Part shown: positions 1-32,452 of the stretch, piece after piece
How positions within the stretch are numbered: position 1 is the first letter of the stretch
Layout of the letters: each line of letters opens with the position of its first letter
From: an uncultured Clostridia bacterium
Lineage (GTDB): Bacteria; Bacillota; Clostridia; Christensenellales; Borkfalkiaceae
Direction: 5' to 3'
DNA length: 33,456 nucleotides
Assembly (NCBI GenBank): GCA_947631325.1
Contig: CANRKX010000013.1
Span: 1 to 33,456 of the forward strand
Made by a program: the position numbers and the translations under genes
Notes under the pieces: model-generated
Told to the model about the DNA's origin: nothing
The model's input: the letters and a program-made list of their open reading frames with translations, nothing else
Database searches by the model: none

Positions 1-75
1 GTGTGAGATGAGCGAGCGCATACGTCCGCGCGAGCGGTGCCCGAGACGGCTGTCTTTCCTTACAGCCGTCGAGAC
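1..75 (+). repeat. Modular hairpin repeat, copy 0 (cut by window edge)
   Basis: This partial copy shares the frame GAGCGAGCGCATACGTCC followed by GCGCGAGCGGTG and CCGA with copies at 26676-26800 and 27053-27278. After CCGA comes a perfect 9-bp hairpin: GACGGCTGT (45-53), loop CTTTCCTT, ACAGCCGTC (62-70), then GAGA. The arm sequence differs from those in the other two copies but is fully self-complementary. It lies just downstream of hisIE. No coding potential is credited to it. Confidence 0.8.
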
Positions 76-22976: not shown

Positions 22977-23247
22977 AATTCTCCTTGTCGCGCCGTTTAA
23001 AAAAACGGCGCCTCTTTTAAATTAAAGAGGCGTCTTTCTAACGCTGTACCACTCTTCTTCACGGCATAAGCCGCCTTTTAAGCGCAAACACGCTTTCCCC
23101 TTGTACGGCGGGCGACCGTTTGCGGCTACTTTGATTTCACCCCAACTGCTCTGCGGCGAGTTCGCAAAATTTCTTCGTGCGCCTCACACCGAACGGCGCA
23201 TCTCTGAACCCGAAATATAAGTTACTATTCCGCTTCATCGCATTATA
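22977..23247 (-). promoter_or_regulatory. T-box leader of leuA, Leu (CTC) specifier
   Basis: The T-box sequence AGAGTGGTACAGCG is at 23055-23042 (minus). A -10 TATAAT lies at 23247-23242, and the stem I AGTAA element at about 23223-23227. On the opposite side of the specifier loop, GAA (23163-23161) is followed by CTC (23160-23158) and a G, then a helix: CTC is a Leu codon, matching leuA. The leader should let transcription through when uncharged tRNA-Leu pairs with it. The -35 is not clear. Confidence 0.88.
22990..23034 (-). terminator. T-box terminator of leuA, with a second overlapping hairpin
   Basis: CGCCTCTTT pairs with AAAGAGGCG (stem arms at 23032-23024 and 23017-23009), followed by CC-G and seven T. 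An additional perfect 9-bp hairpin, GCGCCGTTT/AAACGGCGC (22990-23011), takes the T-run as its loop and one arm and overlaps the foot of the terminator. The two cannot form fully together. Confidence 0.8.
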
Positions 23248-26562: not shown

Positions 26563-26682
26563 GGGGGAACAACCTTCTCTCCCCCGAACCTTAGTAGCGG
26601 TTCGGGTACTCTCCCCCTTTGAAAGTGGGAAAGTTATATTAAGGTGAGATTATTAGAAATGCCAACCGAGACCACGAGGGGA
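26563..26682 (+). repeat. 120-nt repeat, inverted copy 2 (partner at 8346-8465)
   Basis: The plus strand here matches the minus strand of 8346-8465; the first 79 nt are identical but for one base. The hairpin CCCGAACC (26583-26590) / GGTTCGGG (26599-26606) sits between two exact CTCTCCCCC repeats (26577-26585 and 26609-26617). At its right end it runs straight into the modular hairpin repeat. Confidence 0.85.
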
Positions 26683-26800
26683 CGAGCGAGGACTTCCCAA
26701 AAACAGCACAGTGCGCTGTTTTGCCGAGCGAGATGAGCGAGCGCATACGTCCGCGCGAGCGGTGACCGAGCAGGGCGCATTTCCTTACGCCCTGCGAGAA
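26676..26800 (+). repeat. Modular hairpin repeat, copy A
   Basis: The order is GAGGGGACGAGCGAGGACTT, hairpin 1 (AAAACAGC 26700-26707 / GCTGTTTT 26715-26722), GCC, the frame GAGCGAGCGCATACGTCC + GCGCGAGCGGTG + CCGA, hairpin 2 (GCAGGGCG 26770-26777 / CGCCCTGC 26788-26795), GAGAA. Frame sequences match copies 0 and B. Arms differ from copy to copy but always pair. Confidence 0.85.
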
Positions 26801-26805
26801 CTTCC

Positions 26806-26855
26806 ACTCAATCGAACCTGCTTCGCAGGATTCTCATTCGGTCAGAATGACAACA
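26806..26855. repeat. TCAATCGAA hairpin module plus TGTCAT boundary
   Basis: CTCAATCGAA followed by CCTGC-TTC-GCAGG (26817-26829) and TTCTCATTCGG, ending (minus strand) in the boundary TGTCATTCTGA. The equivalent at 8121-8150 has CCCGCG-AA-CGCGGG in the same place. Confidence 0.7.
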
Positions 26856-26876
26856 GGGAACGAGCCGCGCAAATGT

Positions 26877-26904
26877 TAATAGGAAGCCTTGCTAATAGGA
26901 AGCC
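26877..26904 (+). repeat. 12-bp direct repeat, period 16
   Basis: TAATAGGAAGCC occurs at 26877-26888 and again at 26893-26904. No function is evident. Confidence 0.6.
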
Positions 26905-27008
26905 GCGGTTCGGAGAAACGAGCATTCAAAAATAATAATGTTGCAAGCAAAACCACGCTTTTGCGCAGCAGCCCCAATTTGCAAATACCTTTGCCTCAGT
27001 AGGGTGAA

Positions 27009-27052
27009 TGTTTGTGATTATATTATATGTGCGCCCTTAAATATCACAAACA
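27009..27052. repeat. 10-bp inverted repeat with 24-nt AT-rich centre
   Basis: TGTTTGTGAT (27009-27018) and ATCACAAACA (27043-27052) are exact complements around an AT-rich centre. It abuts copy B of the modular repeat and may mark its edge. Confidence 0.5.
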
Positions 27053-27278
27053 GAGGGACGAGCGAGGACTTCTCAAAACAGTGGACACCCACTGTTTTGC
27101 CCCCGCGAGGTGAGTGAGCGCATACGTCCCGCGCGAACGGTGTCCGAACACGGCGTTGCCCTTACGCCGTGTGAGAAGCGAGCGACGACCGCAGGGAGTG
27201 TACAATGAAGTACACGACCAAGGCGGAGCGATGTTCAACACAGTATCGCGACGTTTATACGAAGCGCGAAAGCGGGAG
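27053..27278 (+). repeat. Modular hairpin repeat, copy B (longest)
   Basis: GAGGGACGAGCGAGGACTT, hairpin 1 (AAAACAGTGG 27075-27084 / CCACTGTTTT 27089-27098), the frame GAGCGCATACGTCC + GCGCGAACGGTG + CCGA, hairpin 2 (ACACGGCGT 27148-27156 / ACGCCGTGT 27164-27172), GAGAAGCGAGCGACGACC, hairpin 3 (GTGTAC 27198-27203 / GTACAC 27210-27215), then CGACCAAGGCGGAGCGATG and a GC-rich tail that reaches the gatB stop codon. It may therefore be the 3' untranslated part of the gatB mRNA. Confidence 0.85.
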
Positions 27279-28688
27279 TTAGAGTAAGCGTTTGATAATC
27301 GCATCGGCGGCGCGGATATCCGCCTTGCCTTGGGTTGCACGTTTAATATAGCCGTACAGGGCGGAGATAGCCTTTTCCTTGCCGGCCTTGAAGTCGGCGA
27401 CGGCTTGGGGATTGGCGGCGATTGCCTCGCGGCAGAGCTTTTCAAGCTCCCCCTCGTCCACTCCCTTTACGTCTTCTGTCGAGATATAGTCGCTCACCTT
27501 TCCGCCGTTTGTAAGCATTTTGGAAAGGGTCATCTGAGCGAGGGTGGGGTTGATTTTTCCGCTATCCAACAGCTTGACAAGTTCGGCAAATTGGGCGGCG
27601 TCGAAGGGGAGAGAGAACTTCTCCTTCTGCTCCTCGGTGGCGAACCGGGAATAGATTGCGCCCGTTATGAGGTTTGCCGAATTGCGGGCGGACGCGCCCG
27701 AATTTATACAACTTTCGAAGAAGTCGCAGACAGCCTTATATTTGTAGAGCTGGCGAGCCGTGTGGTCGCTTAATTGCAGCATATCCCTGTACCTTTTTAA
27801 TTTTTCGAGGGGTAATTCGGGGAGGGAAGCCTGTGCTTTTTGCACCTCTTCTTCGGGGATAATTATCGTGGGAAGGTCGGGCTCGGGGAAGTAGCGATAG
27901 TCCTGCGCGTCCTCCTTGGTGCGCATTACGTACGTCTCGCCCGTGTGCTCGTCATAGCGCATCGTCGCCTGTTCCACCTTGCCGCCCGACGAGAGTATTT
28001 CAGCCTGTCGCGAATATTCATACTCCATCGCCTTTTCAATAAAGCTCATGGAGTTCATATTCTTGATTTCGGTGCGCGCGCCGAGGTAGTCTGCGCCCTC
28101 GGGACGGAGCGAAATATTGACGTCGCAGCGCATGCTGCCCTCCTGCATCTTACAGTCGGAGACGGCAAGATAGCGCATGATGAGCTGAAGTTTTTCGACG
28201 TACTCCCTCGCTTCTTCGGGCGAGGAGATATCGGGCTCGGACACTATTTCGATGAGGGGCACGCCGCCGCGGTTATAATCGACGAACGTAAAGCCCCTGT
28301 CGTGGACGAGTTTGCCCGCGTCCTCCTCGATGTGTATTCGGGTTATACCTATCTTTTTGCCGCTCTCGAGCTCGACATAGCCGTGTTCGCAGAGGGGCTT
28401 ATCGAACTGCGAAATCTGATAAGCCTTGGGAAGGTCGGGATAGCAATAGTTCTTTCTGTCGAGGTGGGTGACGGTGTTTATCTTGCAGTGCAGGGCGAGA
28501 CCTGCGCGGATTGCGAACTCGACCACCCTTTTATTGAGGACGGGAAGAGCCCCCGGCTGACCCGTGCAGACGGGGCAGCAATGGGTGTTGGGCGCGCCGC
28601 CGAAAGCCGTGGTGCAGGAGCAGAATATCTTGGTTGCGGTAGCGAGCTCCACATGAGTTTCGAGACCCGAGACGAGTTCGTACTTCAT
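27279..28688 (-). CDS. gatB: Asp/Glu-tRNA(Asn/Gln) amidotransferase subunit GatB
   Basis: GatB binds misacylated tRNA, phosphorylates the carboxyl group with ATP and completes amide transfer with ammonia from GatA. It is 469 aa. The N-terminal cradle starts YELVSGLETHVEL, with the zinc-type cysteines CSCTTAFGG ... HCCPVCTGQPG at about 23-46 and the family run NRGGVPLIEIVSEPD near 160. The helical and YqeY-like tail domain ends at residue 469. The ATG overlaps the gatA stop (ATGA), with GGGGGTG upstream. It is last in the operon; its stop touches a repeat element. Confidence 0.96.
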   Translation of the reverse strand: MKYELVSGLETHVELATATKIFCSCTTAFGGAPNTHCCPVCTGQPGALPVLNKRVVEFAIRAGLALHCKINTVTHLDRKNYCYPDLPKAYQISQFDKPLCEHGYVELESGKKIGITRIHIEEDAGKLVHDRGFTFVDYNRGGVPLIEIVSEPDISSPEEAREYVEKLQLIMRYLAVSDCKMQEGSMRCDVNISLRPEGADYLGARTEIKNMNSMSFIEKAMEYEYSRQAEILSSGGKVEQATMRYDEHTGETYVMRTKEDAQDYRYFPEPDLPTIIIPEEEVQKAQASLPELPLEKLKRYRDMLQLSDHTARQLYKYKAVCDFFESCINSGASARNSANLITGAIYSRFATEEQKEKFSLPFDAAQFAELVKLLDSGKINPTLAQMTLSKMLTNGGKVSDYISTEDVKGVDEGELEKLCREAIAANPQAVADFKAGKEKAISALYGYIKRATQGKADIRAADAIIKRLL

Positions 28689-30133
28689 AATTCCACACCC
28701 CCTTTTTCGGGTTTGCATTTTGAGACGCCGCAAAGTTCGAGGGCGTGCGCCGCGTTTAAAGTTGTGCTGTCGTTAAAGGGCGAGCCTATAATCTGGACGC
28801 CGATGGGAAGCCCGCTTTTGTCGCTGCCGCAGGGGAGCGAGACGGCGGGCAAGCCCGCTATATTCACGGGCACCGTACACATATCCGATAAATACATTTC
28901 GACGGCGTTATTTTGGGTATATCCCAAGGGGAATGCCGTGTTGGGCGCGGTGGGAGCGACGAGGATATCGCACCTTTCAAACAGCTCGTTGAAGTCTTCC
29001 TTTATGCTCTCGCGGAGAAGGCAAGCCTTTTTGTAATAGGCGTCGAGATAGCCGCCCGAGAGCACATACGTGCCGAGCATTATGCGCTTTTGCACTTCCT
29101 TGCCGAAGCCTTGGGTGCGGGTCTTTATAATCATATCGTCGACCGAAGAGTAGTTTTGGGCGCGGAAACCGTAGCGGATGCCGTCATATCTGCCCAGATT
29201 GGAAGAAGCTTCGGCGCAGGCTATTATATAGTAGACGGGAAGGGCGGATTTTAAGGAGGGCGCGGAGTATTCGCATATGGTTGCGCCGCAACTTTCAAGA
29301 CCCTTTAAAGCCCTTTCCACCGCCCCCTTTATCTCGGGGGAGAGCCCCTCGAAAAACTCAGAGACGACGCCCACTTTCATTCCCTTTATATCGCCCGTGA
29401 GCTCTCCGATATCGGGGCACTTGCGGGAAGTCATGTCGCGCTCGTCCTCGCCCTTTACGGCGTTGAATACGATTGCCGCATCCTCAACGGAGAGGGCTAT
29501 CGCCCCGATCTGGTCGAGCGAGGAGCCGTATGCGATGAGCCCGTAACGGGAGACGGCGCCATAGGTGGGTTTGAAGCCGACGACGCCGCAGAAGGCGGCG
29601 GGCTGGCGCACGGAGCCGCCCGTATCCGAGCCGAGGGCAAAGGGCGCGAGCCCTGCGGCGACGGCAGCCGCCGAACCGCCAGAGGAGCCGCCCGTGACGC
29701 GGTTTAAGTCCCTCGGGTTTTTGGGTGCGCCGAAACAGGACGTCTCGCTCGTGGAGCCCATGGCGAATTCGTCCATGTTGGTCTTGCCGAGAAGGGGGGC
29801 GCAGATATCCTTTAATTTTTTGTAGGCGGTGGCGTCATAATAGGGCTTGAAGCCCGAAAGTATTTTGGAACAGCAAGTAGTCTCTATTCCGTCGGTGCAG
29901 ATATTGTCTTTCAGGGCGAAGGGTATGCCCGTTAAGGGGGCTGCCTCTCCCCTCGCTATCATCTTGTCGGCGCGCTCGGCAGCAAGGAGAGCCTCGTCGA
30001 AACACCTCGTCACATAGGAGTTGATTTGGGGGTCGCGATTTTCAATAACTTCAATATACTTGCGGGTCAATTGCACCGAACTTATCTCTTTGTCGCGAAG
30101 AAGGCGGGATAATTGTTTTAGAGTAGCCGTCAT
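28685..30133 (-). CDS. gatA: Asp/Glu-tRNA(Asn/Gln) amidotransferase subunit GatA
   Basis: GatA is the glutaminase subunit, an amidase-signature enzyme that frees ammonia for GatB. It is 482 aa. The Ser-cisSer-Lys triad is visible: Lys in PFALKDNI near 76, the cis-Ser and nucleophile in GGSSGGSAAAVAAGLAPFALGSDTGG (split about residues 147-172). NMDEFAMGSTSE near 121 is another family motif. The ATG overlaps the gatC stop (ATGA), with GGAGG upstream. Confidence 0.97.
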   Translation of the reverse strand: MTATLKQLSRLLRDKEISSVQLTRKYIEVIENRDPQINSYVTRCFDEALLAAERADKMIARGEAAPLTGIPFALKDNICTDGIETTCCSKILSGFKPYYDATAYKKLKDICAPLLGKTNMDEFAMGSTSETSCFGAPKNPRDLNRVTGGSSGGSAAAVAAGLAPFALGSDTGGSVRQPAAFCGVVGFKPTYGAVSRYGLIAYGSSLDQIGAIALSVEDAAIVFNAVKGEDERDMTSRKCPDIGELTGDIKGMKVGVVSEFFEGLSPEIKGAVERALKGLESCGATICEYSAPSLKSALPVYYIIACAEASSNLGRYDGIRYGFRAQNYSSVDDMIIKTRTQGFGKEVQKRIMLGTYVLSGGYLDAYYKKACLLRESIKEDFNELFERCDILVAPTAPNTAFPLGYTQNNAVEMYLSDMCTVPVNIAGLPAVSLPCGSDKSGLPIGVQIIGSPFNDSTTLNAAHALELCGVSKCKPEKGGVEL

Positions 30134-32160: not shown

Positions 32161-32452
32161 TCCTCCTAAAAATAAACAAAAAATAATCGTCCCAAAATCA
32201 ATTTAGGACGAAATAAAATCCGCGGTGCCACCTAACTTATTGCAATAAAGCAATCACTTTATGCGCCCCTGACGCGGGCTCTTCGGCGCGCCCTACTGAG
32301 CCTTTAAGCCTTTCGGGTTTGCGGCTCGCGAGTGTTATTCGCACGCCCTCATTCTGCGGAATTTTCAGCGGGTACCGCTCTCTGTCAAGCGAGCTTGCGT
32401 GTTACTTCTCTCGGTCAAAGCCTTTAATAATTATAAATTTATGCCAATTATA
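32161..32452 (-). promoter_or_regulatory. T-box leader of aspS-gatCAB, Asn (AAC) specifier
   Basis: The T-box sequence AGGTGGCACCGCG is at 32233-32221 (minus), followed by the terminator hairpin. Stem I begins with GAGAGAAGTAA (AGTA element). On the other side of the specifier loop GAA (32340-32338), T, AAC (32336-32334), A precede the closing helix CTCG. By the rule that the specifier is followed by a purine next to that helix, the codon is AAC for Asn. This fits an operon that makes Asn-tRNA. The one-base shift from the GAA element compared with the leuA leader makes the reading slightly less certain. Confidence 0.85.
32178..32210 (-). terminator. T-box terminator of aspS
   Basis: CGTCCTAAA pairs with TTTGGGACG (one G-T pair), then ATTATTTTTTG on the minus strand. 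It is the off-state of the T-box leader. Confidence 0.8.

Follow-up and report, generated by a model that had tools for sequence, protein, structure and literature searches.

Dispersed and probably mobile palindromic repeats that keep a three-hairpin fold while their arms vary

What kind of element keeps perfect hairpins while the arms of these hairpins differ from one copy to the next? The question is raised by repeats in a window of 33,456 nucleotides, the whole stretch of DNA analysed here, which makes up the whole of contig C13 in a draft genome of 1.46 Mb and 78 contigs. The original prediction described three copies (0, A and B) with variable arms, each followed by its exact complement. 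All the named arms are indeed present: GACGGCTGT at 45 with its complement at 62, GCAGGGCG at 26770 and 26788, ACACGGCGT at 27148 and 27164 and, in a second slot, AAAACAGC at 26700 and 26715 and AAAACAGTGG at 27075 and 27089. The hairpin lengths of 26, 26 and 25 nt are also correct. The copies are real as well, but their extents had to be redrawn, copy A covering 26680-26799 and copy B 27056-27176; the end of copy B had been placed at 27278, about 100 nt too far. Likewise, the two hairpin slots exist, but a third hairpin had gone unrecognised: the supposed "conserved frame" around ATACGTCC is hairpin 2 itself (GCGAGCGC/GCGCGAGC, with an internal tandem G.A). The outer stem of hairpin 1 and the tandem G.A pairs beneath hairpins 1 and 3 had been missed too.

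The unit is 119-124 nt long and, read on the + strand, contains three hairpins in the order GGACGA - hairpin 1 - AUGA - hairpin 2 - GGUGMC - CGA - hairpin 3 - GAGA. In hairpin 1, a one-sided internal loop separates the outer stem from the inner one. Eight pairs make up hairpin 2 and 8-9 pairs hairpin 3, whose loop contains CCTTR. Tandem G.A pairs form the base of hairpins 1 and 3. Copy A (26680..26799, + strand) scores 129.3 bits with the covariance model R1, which was built from an alignment that includes copies A and B. Its hairpin 1 (26683..26732, +), drawn from sequence, column pairs and covariation, has a C-GA foot, an outer stem GCGAGG/CCGAGC with an internal tandem G.A, and an inner stem AAAACAGC/GCTGTTTT. 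Hairpin 2 (26737..26760, +) reads GCGAGCGC - ATACGTCC - GCGCGAGC, with its tandem G.A in mid-stem, and hairpin 3 (26767..26798, +) pairs GCAGGGCG with CGCCCTGC between a C-GA and a GA-G foot. Copy B (27056..27176, +) scores 121.1 bits with the same model. The outer stem of its hairpin 1 combines two types, GCGAGG facing CCCCGC with one A.C mismatch. In its hairpin 2 (GTGAGCGC/GCGCGAAC; 27114..27138, +) a C-G pair of copy A is replaced by T-A, and its hairpin 3 (ACACGGCG/CGCCGTGT; 27145..27175, +) has the same C-GA / GA-G foot. Copy 0 (1..74, +) lacks its 5' part at the contig start and keeps hairpins 2 and 3 (model positions 46-120, 74.5 bits).

Copies A and B sit between two leftward-running ORFs, and the one downstream of them (27279-28733) looks gatB-like from its sequence. 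The covariance model finds 20 copies in the window's genome. Copies lie at or close to the ends of four contigs (C13, C33, C53 and C73); hence, the element probably breaks the assembly and its copies are undercounted. An extra 20-22 nt separates hairpins 2 and 3 in 4 of the first 41 copies (L013, L101, L103, L107), as an optional insert TCGTACCGAAGGCG..AGCCTTAC with a small hairpin of its own.

The fold was examined in several ways, of which alignment A1 and the alignment-free tests are not fitted to the covariance model, while alignments A2, A3 and that of the tRNA-linked copies are. A1 (MAFFT) holds 37 of 41 distinct full copies from four genomes, the 4 insert-bearing copies being excluded; its structure was drawn by hand from the same sequences, so that slid controls favour it. 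In A1, 90.3% of the cells are standard pairs (79.3% after shuffling) and 115 cells are changed on both sides, against 29.9 in shuffles, none of 500 shuffles being as high; 4 cells are one-sided. The number of further pair types showed no excess (23 vs 23.9 shuffled). A covariation test had been proposed along with the original prediction, and A2, an alignment by the covariance model of 72 distinct copies taken from other genomes, provides it: all 29 modelled pairs have changes on both sides, with 451 both-sides-changed cells (115.8 shuffled) and a covariation score of 0.568 (0.164 shuffled). None of 500 shuffles was as high on any of five measures, and the three hairpins covary separately.

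In the alignment-free test, the linkers of 95 distinct elements were the only anchors and the arms were never aligned. Hairpin-3 arms match their own partner at 6.56 of 7 Watson-Crick positions, compared to 2.85 with the partners of other copies; the corresponding values are 5.88 and 3.54 of 7 for hairpin 2, and 3.92 and 2.00 of 5 for the outer stem of hairpin 1. The 95 elements contain 41 distinct hairpin-3 arm pairs (27 perfect), 24 for hairpin 2 (9 perfect) and 40 for the hairpin-1 outer stem (22 perfect), a diversity that a few recombined parent copies do not account for. In addition, RNAalifold recovers the same three hairpins from A3, which is fitted to the model, when no structure is supplied. 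Minimum-energy folds of single copies fail to show the fold (copy A, z of -1.05 on the + strand and -1.45 on the - strand). Both sides of the arms thus change together, as had been claimed, and what is kept is the fold and not the sequence.

Two further ideas on the structure were set aside. A pseudoknot between the 5' GGACG and a hairpin-2 loop CGTCC is predicted in some single folds; it was rejected because the loop is unconserved beyond the window's close relatives and the 5' GG changes along with the flanking sequence. A transcription terminator was also rejected, the A/T tract of hairpin 1 being replaced by GCACAGC/GCTGTGC in many copies.

The search for further copies in relatives, suggested at the outset, was productive: at an E-value of 0.001 the covariance model finds the element in 75 of the 93 genomes of the genus, from none found to 93 copies per genome (the latter in G056). 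A sample of the order gave 16 of 297 genomes, among which nine belong to the same genus, five to other genera of the family and two to other families, with one match each. A sample of the class gave 3 of 391, one of them weak (E 5.7e-4); searches over more than 40 genomes use stricter filters, and their zeros are therefore no proof of absence. The element is confined almost wholly to one bacterial family. Six stretches of genome contigs match the exact frame, those from Alphaproteobacteria and Prevotella without the rest of the element. A phage origin was considered and dropped, two exact-pattern scans of viral contigs, with patterns that fit some variants only, giving no match.

The family has been amplified and turns over. 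Nine identical 114-nt copies are found in one genome (G223) and four identical 120-nt copies in another (G056); their flanks are similar and made of other repeats. A larger unit may therefore be what moves, or recombination may account for part of the spread. gatB was found in 42 of the 93 genus genomes, and 30 loci, 67-78% identical, were fetched. The window's own is the sole occupied one: none of the 29 loci from other genomes carries the element at gatB, and 23 of these 29 genomes hold one or more copies at other sites. In several of the gatB matches from relatives, the aligned stretch includes a single TGA or TAA, which may be the gene end only.

The ends of the element are defined: beyond G(G)ACGA and GAGA(A), conservation drops almost at once (at -4 and about +3) across 156 flank contexts, some of them from loci fetched through the tRNA pattern described below. 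Of these contexts, 68 fall within hairpin repeats of the CTCCC../..GACTGAGG type, 19 follow ..CCACGGGG, 15 are in a tRNA 5' half, 9 follow ..GCAAATTG and 45 are of other kinds. In the window itself (positions 26800-26870 and 27178-27275) and at other loci, the flanks belong to other palindromic repeat families with variable hairpins; examples are repeats of the ..GGTCAGAATGACA and CTCCC../..GACTGAGGGG types. A strict-pattern scan of host repeats gave 7 empty and 2 filled sites, and a wider comparison was made by eye. No clean empty/filled pair was seen in unique orthologous sequence and no insertion event was observed, the relatives being too distant to provide such a pair (gatB 67-78% identical over the 30 loci). 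By eye, 98 flank contexts showed no consistent direct repeat as a target-site duplication, and no clean empty site.

In our preferred reading, to which we give a probability of about 0.6, these units of about 120 nt are non-autonomous mobile repeats of one family, recognised as a folded single strand. We infer that new copies arise by insertion. The + strand, as ssDNA or RNA, would fold into the three hairpins, and a putative protein supplied in trans would recognise this folded strand. Only well-folded copies would then multiply, and the fold would be selected at the level of the element. Against this reading stand the lack of an observed insertion event and of a mobilising enzyme in 20 high-copy genomes, and the copies associated with tRNA genes, which suggest a host role for some.

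These tRNA-linked copies were searched for in the 93 genus genomes with a 16-nt pattern that joins the end of the tRNA-Arg D-arm to the element start. The pattern gave 26 hits in 20 genomes, compared to 3 hits for the reversed pattern. Scanning 25 of these loci revealed an intact tRNA-Arg(acg) at 16 of them (in 15 genomes), a tRNA-Val(gac) at 2 and none at the other 7, and the covariance model finds the element in all 15 tRNA-Arg genomes, partly degenerate in two. The arrangement is a tRNA-copy 5' half, the element, an anticodon-arm-like piece, about 50 nt and then the intact tRNA. Individual loci (L146, L150, L154, L195 and several of L251-L270) display such a partial tRNA-Arg(acg) interrupted by the element directly 5' of an intact tRNA-Arg(acg). 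At loci outside the pattern, 17 element-tRNA pairs lie within 300 nt of each other among 151 distinct elements, 15 in the same and 2 in opposite orientation, the window's own genome being among the 2. The element also occurs 3' of an intact tRNA, within an apparent second partial copy, for Arg (L184, L164), Thr (L151), Leu (L149) and Ser (L173). L149 (1390-1640 region, - strand) and L173 carry composites of about 253 nt, closed by tRNA-Leu- and tRNA-Ser-derived stems respectively, that hold the element and a common second module, GGTCGGAGG.CTCTACCGACGAC - hairpin - CCGTGCGCCGCGCYCAAGCGGC.

This setting could point to a host-functional structured RNA that acts in cis, for instance as a tRNA leader or spacer, the dispersed copies being pseudogenes or paralogues. 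The copies that immediately precede an intact tRNA-Arg(acg) in 15 of 93 genomes and the common orientation of 15 of the 17 pairs agree with it, as do TTGACA/TATAAT promoter-like stretches seen by eye ahead of several tRNA-linked copies. The fold is preserved in these copies too: over 21 rows (Arg, Val and one row from another genus), 21 of 29 pairs are changed on both sides. On the other hand, the copy number ranges from none found to 93, and gatB is occupied at 0 of 29 loci. Orientation relative to protein genes is unbiased. In a survey of the neighbours of 82 copies, based on crude ORF calls, 56 have an ORF on both sides, of which 17 are co-directional, 18 antisense, 14 convergent and 7 divergent, and 5 of the 82 copies overlap a long ORF. 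The even split between co-directional and antisense places also speaks against a structured RNA in 3' regions, one of the possibilities first put forward. Moreover, the tRNA-Arg-type copy of the window's genome is at best 0.79 identical to tRNA copies elsewhere, compared to 0.82 to an ordinary copy of its own genome and 0.84 to one of another genome; vertical descent of this copy is thus unsupported, ordinary copies being as close or closer. Taken together, we regard a host RNA as unlikely.

A variant with RNA at its centre is a longer shot: the + strand could be an RNA co-transcribed with tRNA genes that spreads through an RNA intermediate, a bacterial counterpart of tRNA-derived short retroposons. 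If so, retroposition would leave the partial tRNA-element fusions beside intact tRNAs (Arg, Val, Pro, Thr, Leu, Ser), and selection on the three-hairpin RNA fold would be selection for its own retro-copying. The pairing of element and partial tRNA raises the question of how such fusions arise. A dedicated reverse transcriptase was rejected as the mobiliser, being detected in 7 of 20 high-copy genomes only.

A REP-like repeat whose hairpins, as ssDNA, would be substrates of a Y1 (RAYT/IS200-type) transposase is just as improbable as the retroposon variant. Strand-specific hairpins, defined feet and tetranucleotide-like conserved linkers would suit such an enzyme, and a Y1_Tnp match is present in 9 of 20 high-copy genomes. 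However, 11 of the 20 have no match (among them G000, G002, G006, G014, G016 and G098), although drafts may miss one, and there is no GTAG tag and three non-identical hairpins take the place of an inverted doublet. Among 31 genus genomes, all drafts, 8 have a match, the window's own having none. Eight of the 20 high-copy genomes, including the window's own, have neither a Y1 transposase nor a reverse transcriptase. A search for an autonomous partner between neighbouring copies was also unrewarding, the longer ORFs of one cluster (L216) looking by eye like ordinary cellular ones.

Under the preferred reading of mobile repeats, one strand would be the recognised form, and the tandem G.A pairs bear on this. 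In A1, the tandem under hairpins 1 and 3 has G.A in 37 of 37 rows at both, and A.G in 35 and 37 of 37, respectively. Under each of the two hairpins it is kept in 64 of 72 A2 rows, and in A3 it is kept in 47 (hairpin 1) and 46 (hairpin 3) of 47 rows; two A2 rows have GC/GC in its place under hairpin 1. Sheared tandem G.A pairs in a YGAR context are stable in RNA and DNA. The two central positions of hairpin 2 are GA/GA in 58, Watson-Crick in 43 and other in 5 of 106 distinct elements, or 7, 12 and 5 of the 24 distinct arm pairs. This alternation means that covariation tests limited to standard pairs undercount hairpin 2.

A DNA cruciform bound by a protein had been among the initial suggestions, here widened to include a bent site, with a chromosomal protein as the partner and selection in double-stranded DNA. 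The perfect inverted repeats, intergenic places and absent orientation bias are what it would predict. A cruciform read equally on both strands is nevertheless weakened, since a tandem G.A on the + strand would be T.C on the opposite one and since the tandem trades with Watson-Crick pairs. The element also has three separate short stems and conserved single-strand linkers, and we hold a cruciform to be very unlikely. Two other measures do not discriminate between the strands: G.T intermediates outnumber A.C ones by 42 to 29 (p 0.15, not significant), and total energies of 41 copies are close (-2045.6 on + vs -2029.0 on -). The non-significant excess among these intermediates and the 5 of 24 hairpin-2 arm pairs that are neither G.A nor Watson-Crick also count against the strand claim of the mobile-repeat reading.

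How the arms change was followed within G056, where 53 of 93 copies were fetched, 47 of them distinct, and double and single stem changes were counted by copy-pair distance; since the same copy enters several sequence pairs, these are not independent. At 1-3 differences (33 sequence pairs), there are 0 double and 19 single changes. The counts become 15 and 100 at 4-8 differences, 321 and 289 at 9-15, 1466 and 483 at 16-30, and 4436 and 577 beyond 30, a double share of 0.88. At least one non-Watson-Crick cell is found in 27 of the 47 distinct copies. One-sided changes therefore come first and compensation later, as expected for selection on the fold and not for copying of arms, and a mobile element that rewrites its stems, as once envisaged, does not fit. 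Template switching at palindromes, by which stems would be rewritten in one step and pairing copied instead of selected, could explain the nearly all-double differences between distant copies (115 double vs 4 one-sided cells in A1) and one hairpin 3 standing alone as an extended perfect palindrome (L083), but as the main process it is already refuted by the G056 counts and it is extremely improbable overall. Modules also reassort: hairpin-2 types GCAAGCAC and GTTTGCGC occur with hairpin-3 types CAGCGGCTG and CAACAGCGG in 4 of 4 combinations (12, 1, 2 and 4 times).

The family offers a natural experiment on shape selection, with hundreds of copies in which all 29 modelled pairs vary on both sides, and with the order of events, one-sided change and later compensation, visible within one genome. 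Should spreading depend on the fold, the repeats could become a tool to find an enzyme that handles folded single strands in Clostridia, where it would be sought in the absence of a consistent Y1 transposase.

How does the element compare with known systems? No paper describing it was found in the literature covered, subscription journals and preprints lying largely outside. At the gathering score, Rfam families match the whole window only at two T-boxes elsewhere; these leaders lie at 23023-23247 (-) and 32201-32427 (-), with 105.8 and 104.9 bits. Up to an E-value of 10, the region 26600-27300 gave one sub-threshold mir-2 match, and six further loci gave tRNA only. REPs and REPINs are dispersed, intergenic, non-coding repeats with conserved ends (PMC3116915, PMC8266576), and REPINs commonly show arm-compensating changes that keep pairing (Bertels and Rainey 2011, PMC3116915). 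The element resembles them in being dispersed, intergenic and non-coding, with conserved ends and variable arms that stay paired, and its design is therefore not without precedent. REPs are also strand-specific folded substrates, the E. coli REP being sensitive to stem mismatches with TnpA-REP (PMC3116915, PMC8266576). The element differs in its feet, C-GA / GA-G (G.A column 37/37 in A1, 64/72 in A2) in place of the GTAG tetranucleotide, in its tandem G.A, in having three different hairpins in a row and not two inverted REPs in one long hairpin, and in lacking a consistent Y1 (RAYT) transposase.

CGTC-tagged REPs are reported to be dispersed palindromic repeats without a dedicated transposase, with one 8-9 bp stem, a 4-5 nt loop and a CCA-like tail (Di Nocera 2013, PMC3733652). 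The 5' GGACGA of the element reads TCGTCC on the other strand, the sole fit and at one end; the element is 120 nt long with three stems, and its first pairs (A-T in CGTC-REPs) and tail differ. BOX, RUP and SPRITE of pneumococcus, as portrayed in Croucher 2011 (PMC3049150), are modular, extensively structured intergenic repeats of a Firmicute that are considered to be non-autonomous mobile elements, and terminal inverted repeats resembling those of IS are discussed. BOX-type repeats, compared here by description, are the nearest in size and host phylum; no terminal inverted repeat was seen in the element. Its ends, GGACGA and GAGA, are by eye not complementary, unlike the terminal inverted repeats of a MITE, and its high, variable copy number and identical copies are those of a MITE or other non-autonomous mobile element. 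Outside bacteria, the GC-clusters of yeast mitochondria, an organelle of a eukaryote, are a family of short, palindromic, dispersed DNA sequences regarded as mobile. Overall, we class the element as a new family among the dispersed palindromic, probably mobile repeats.
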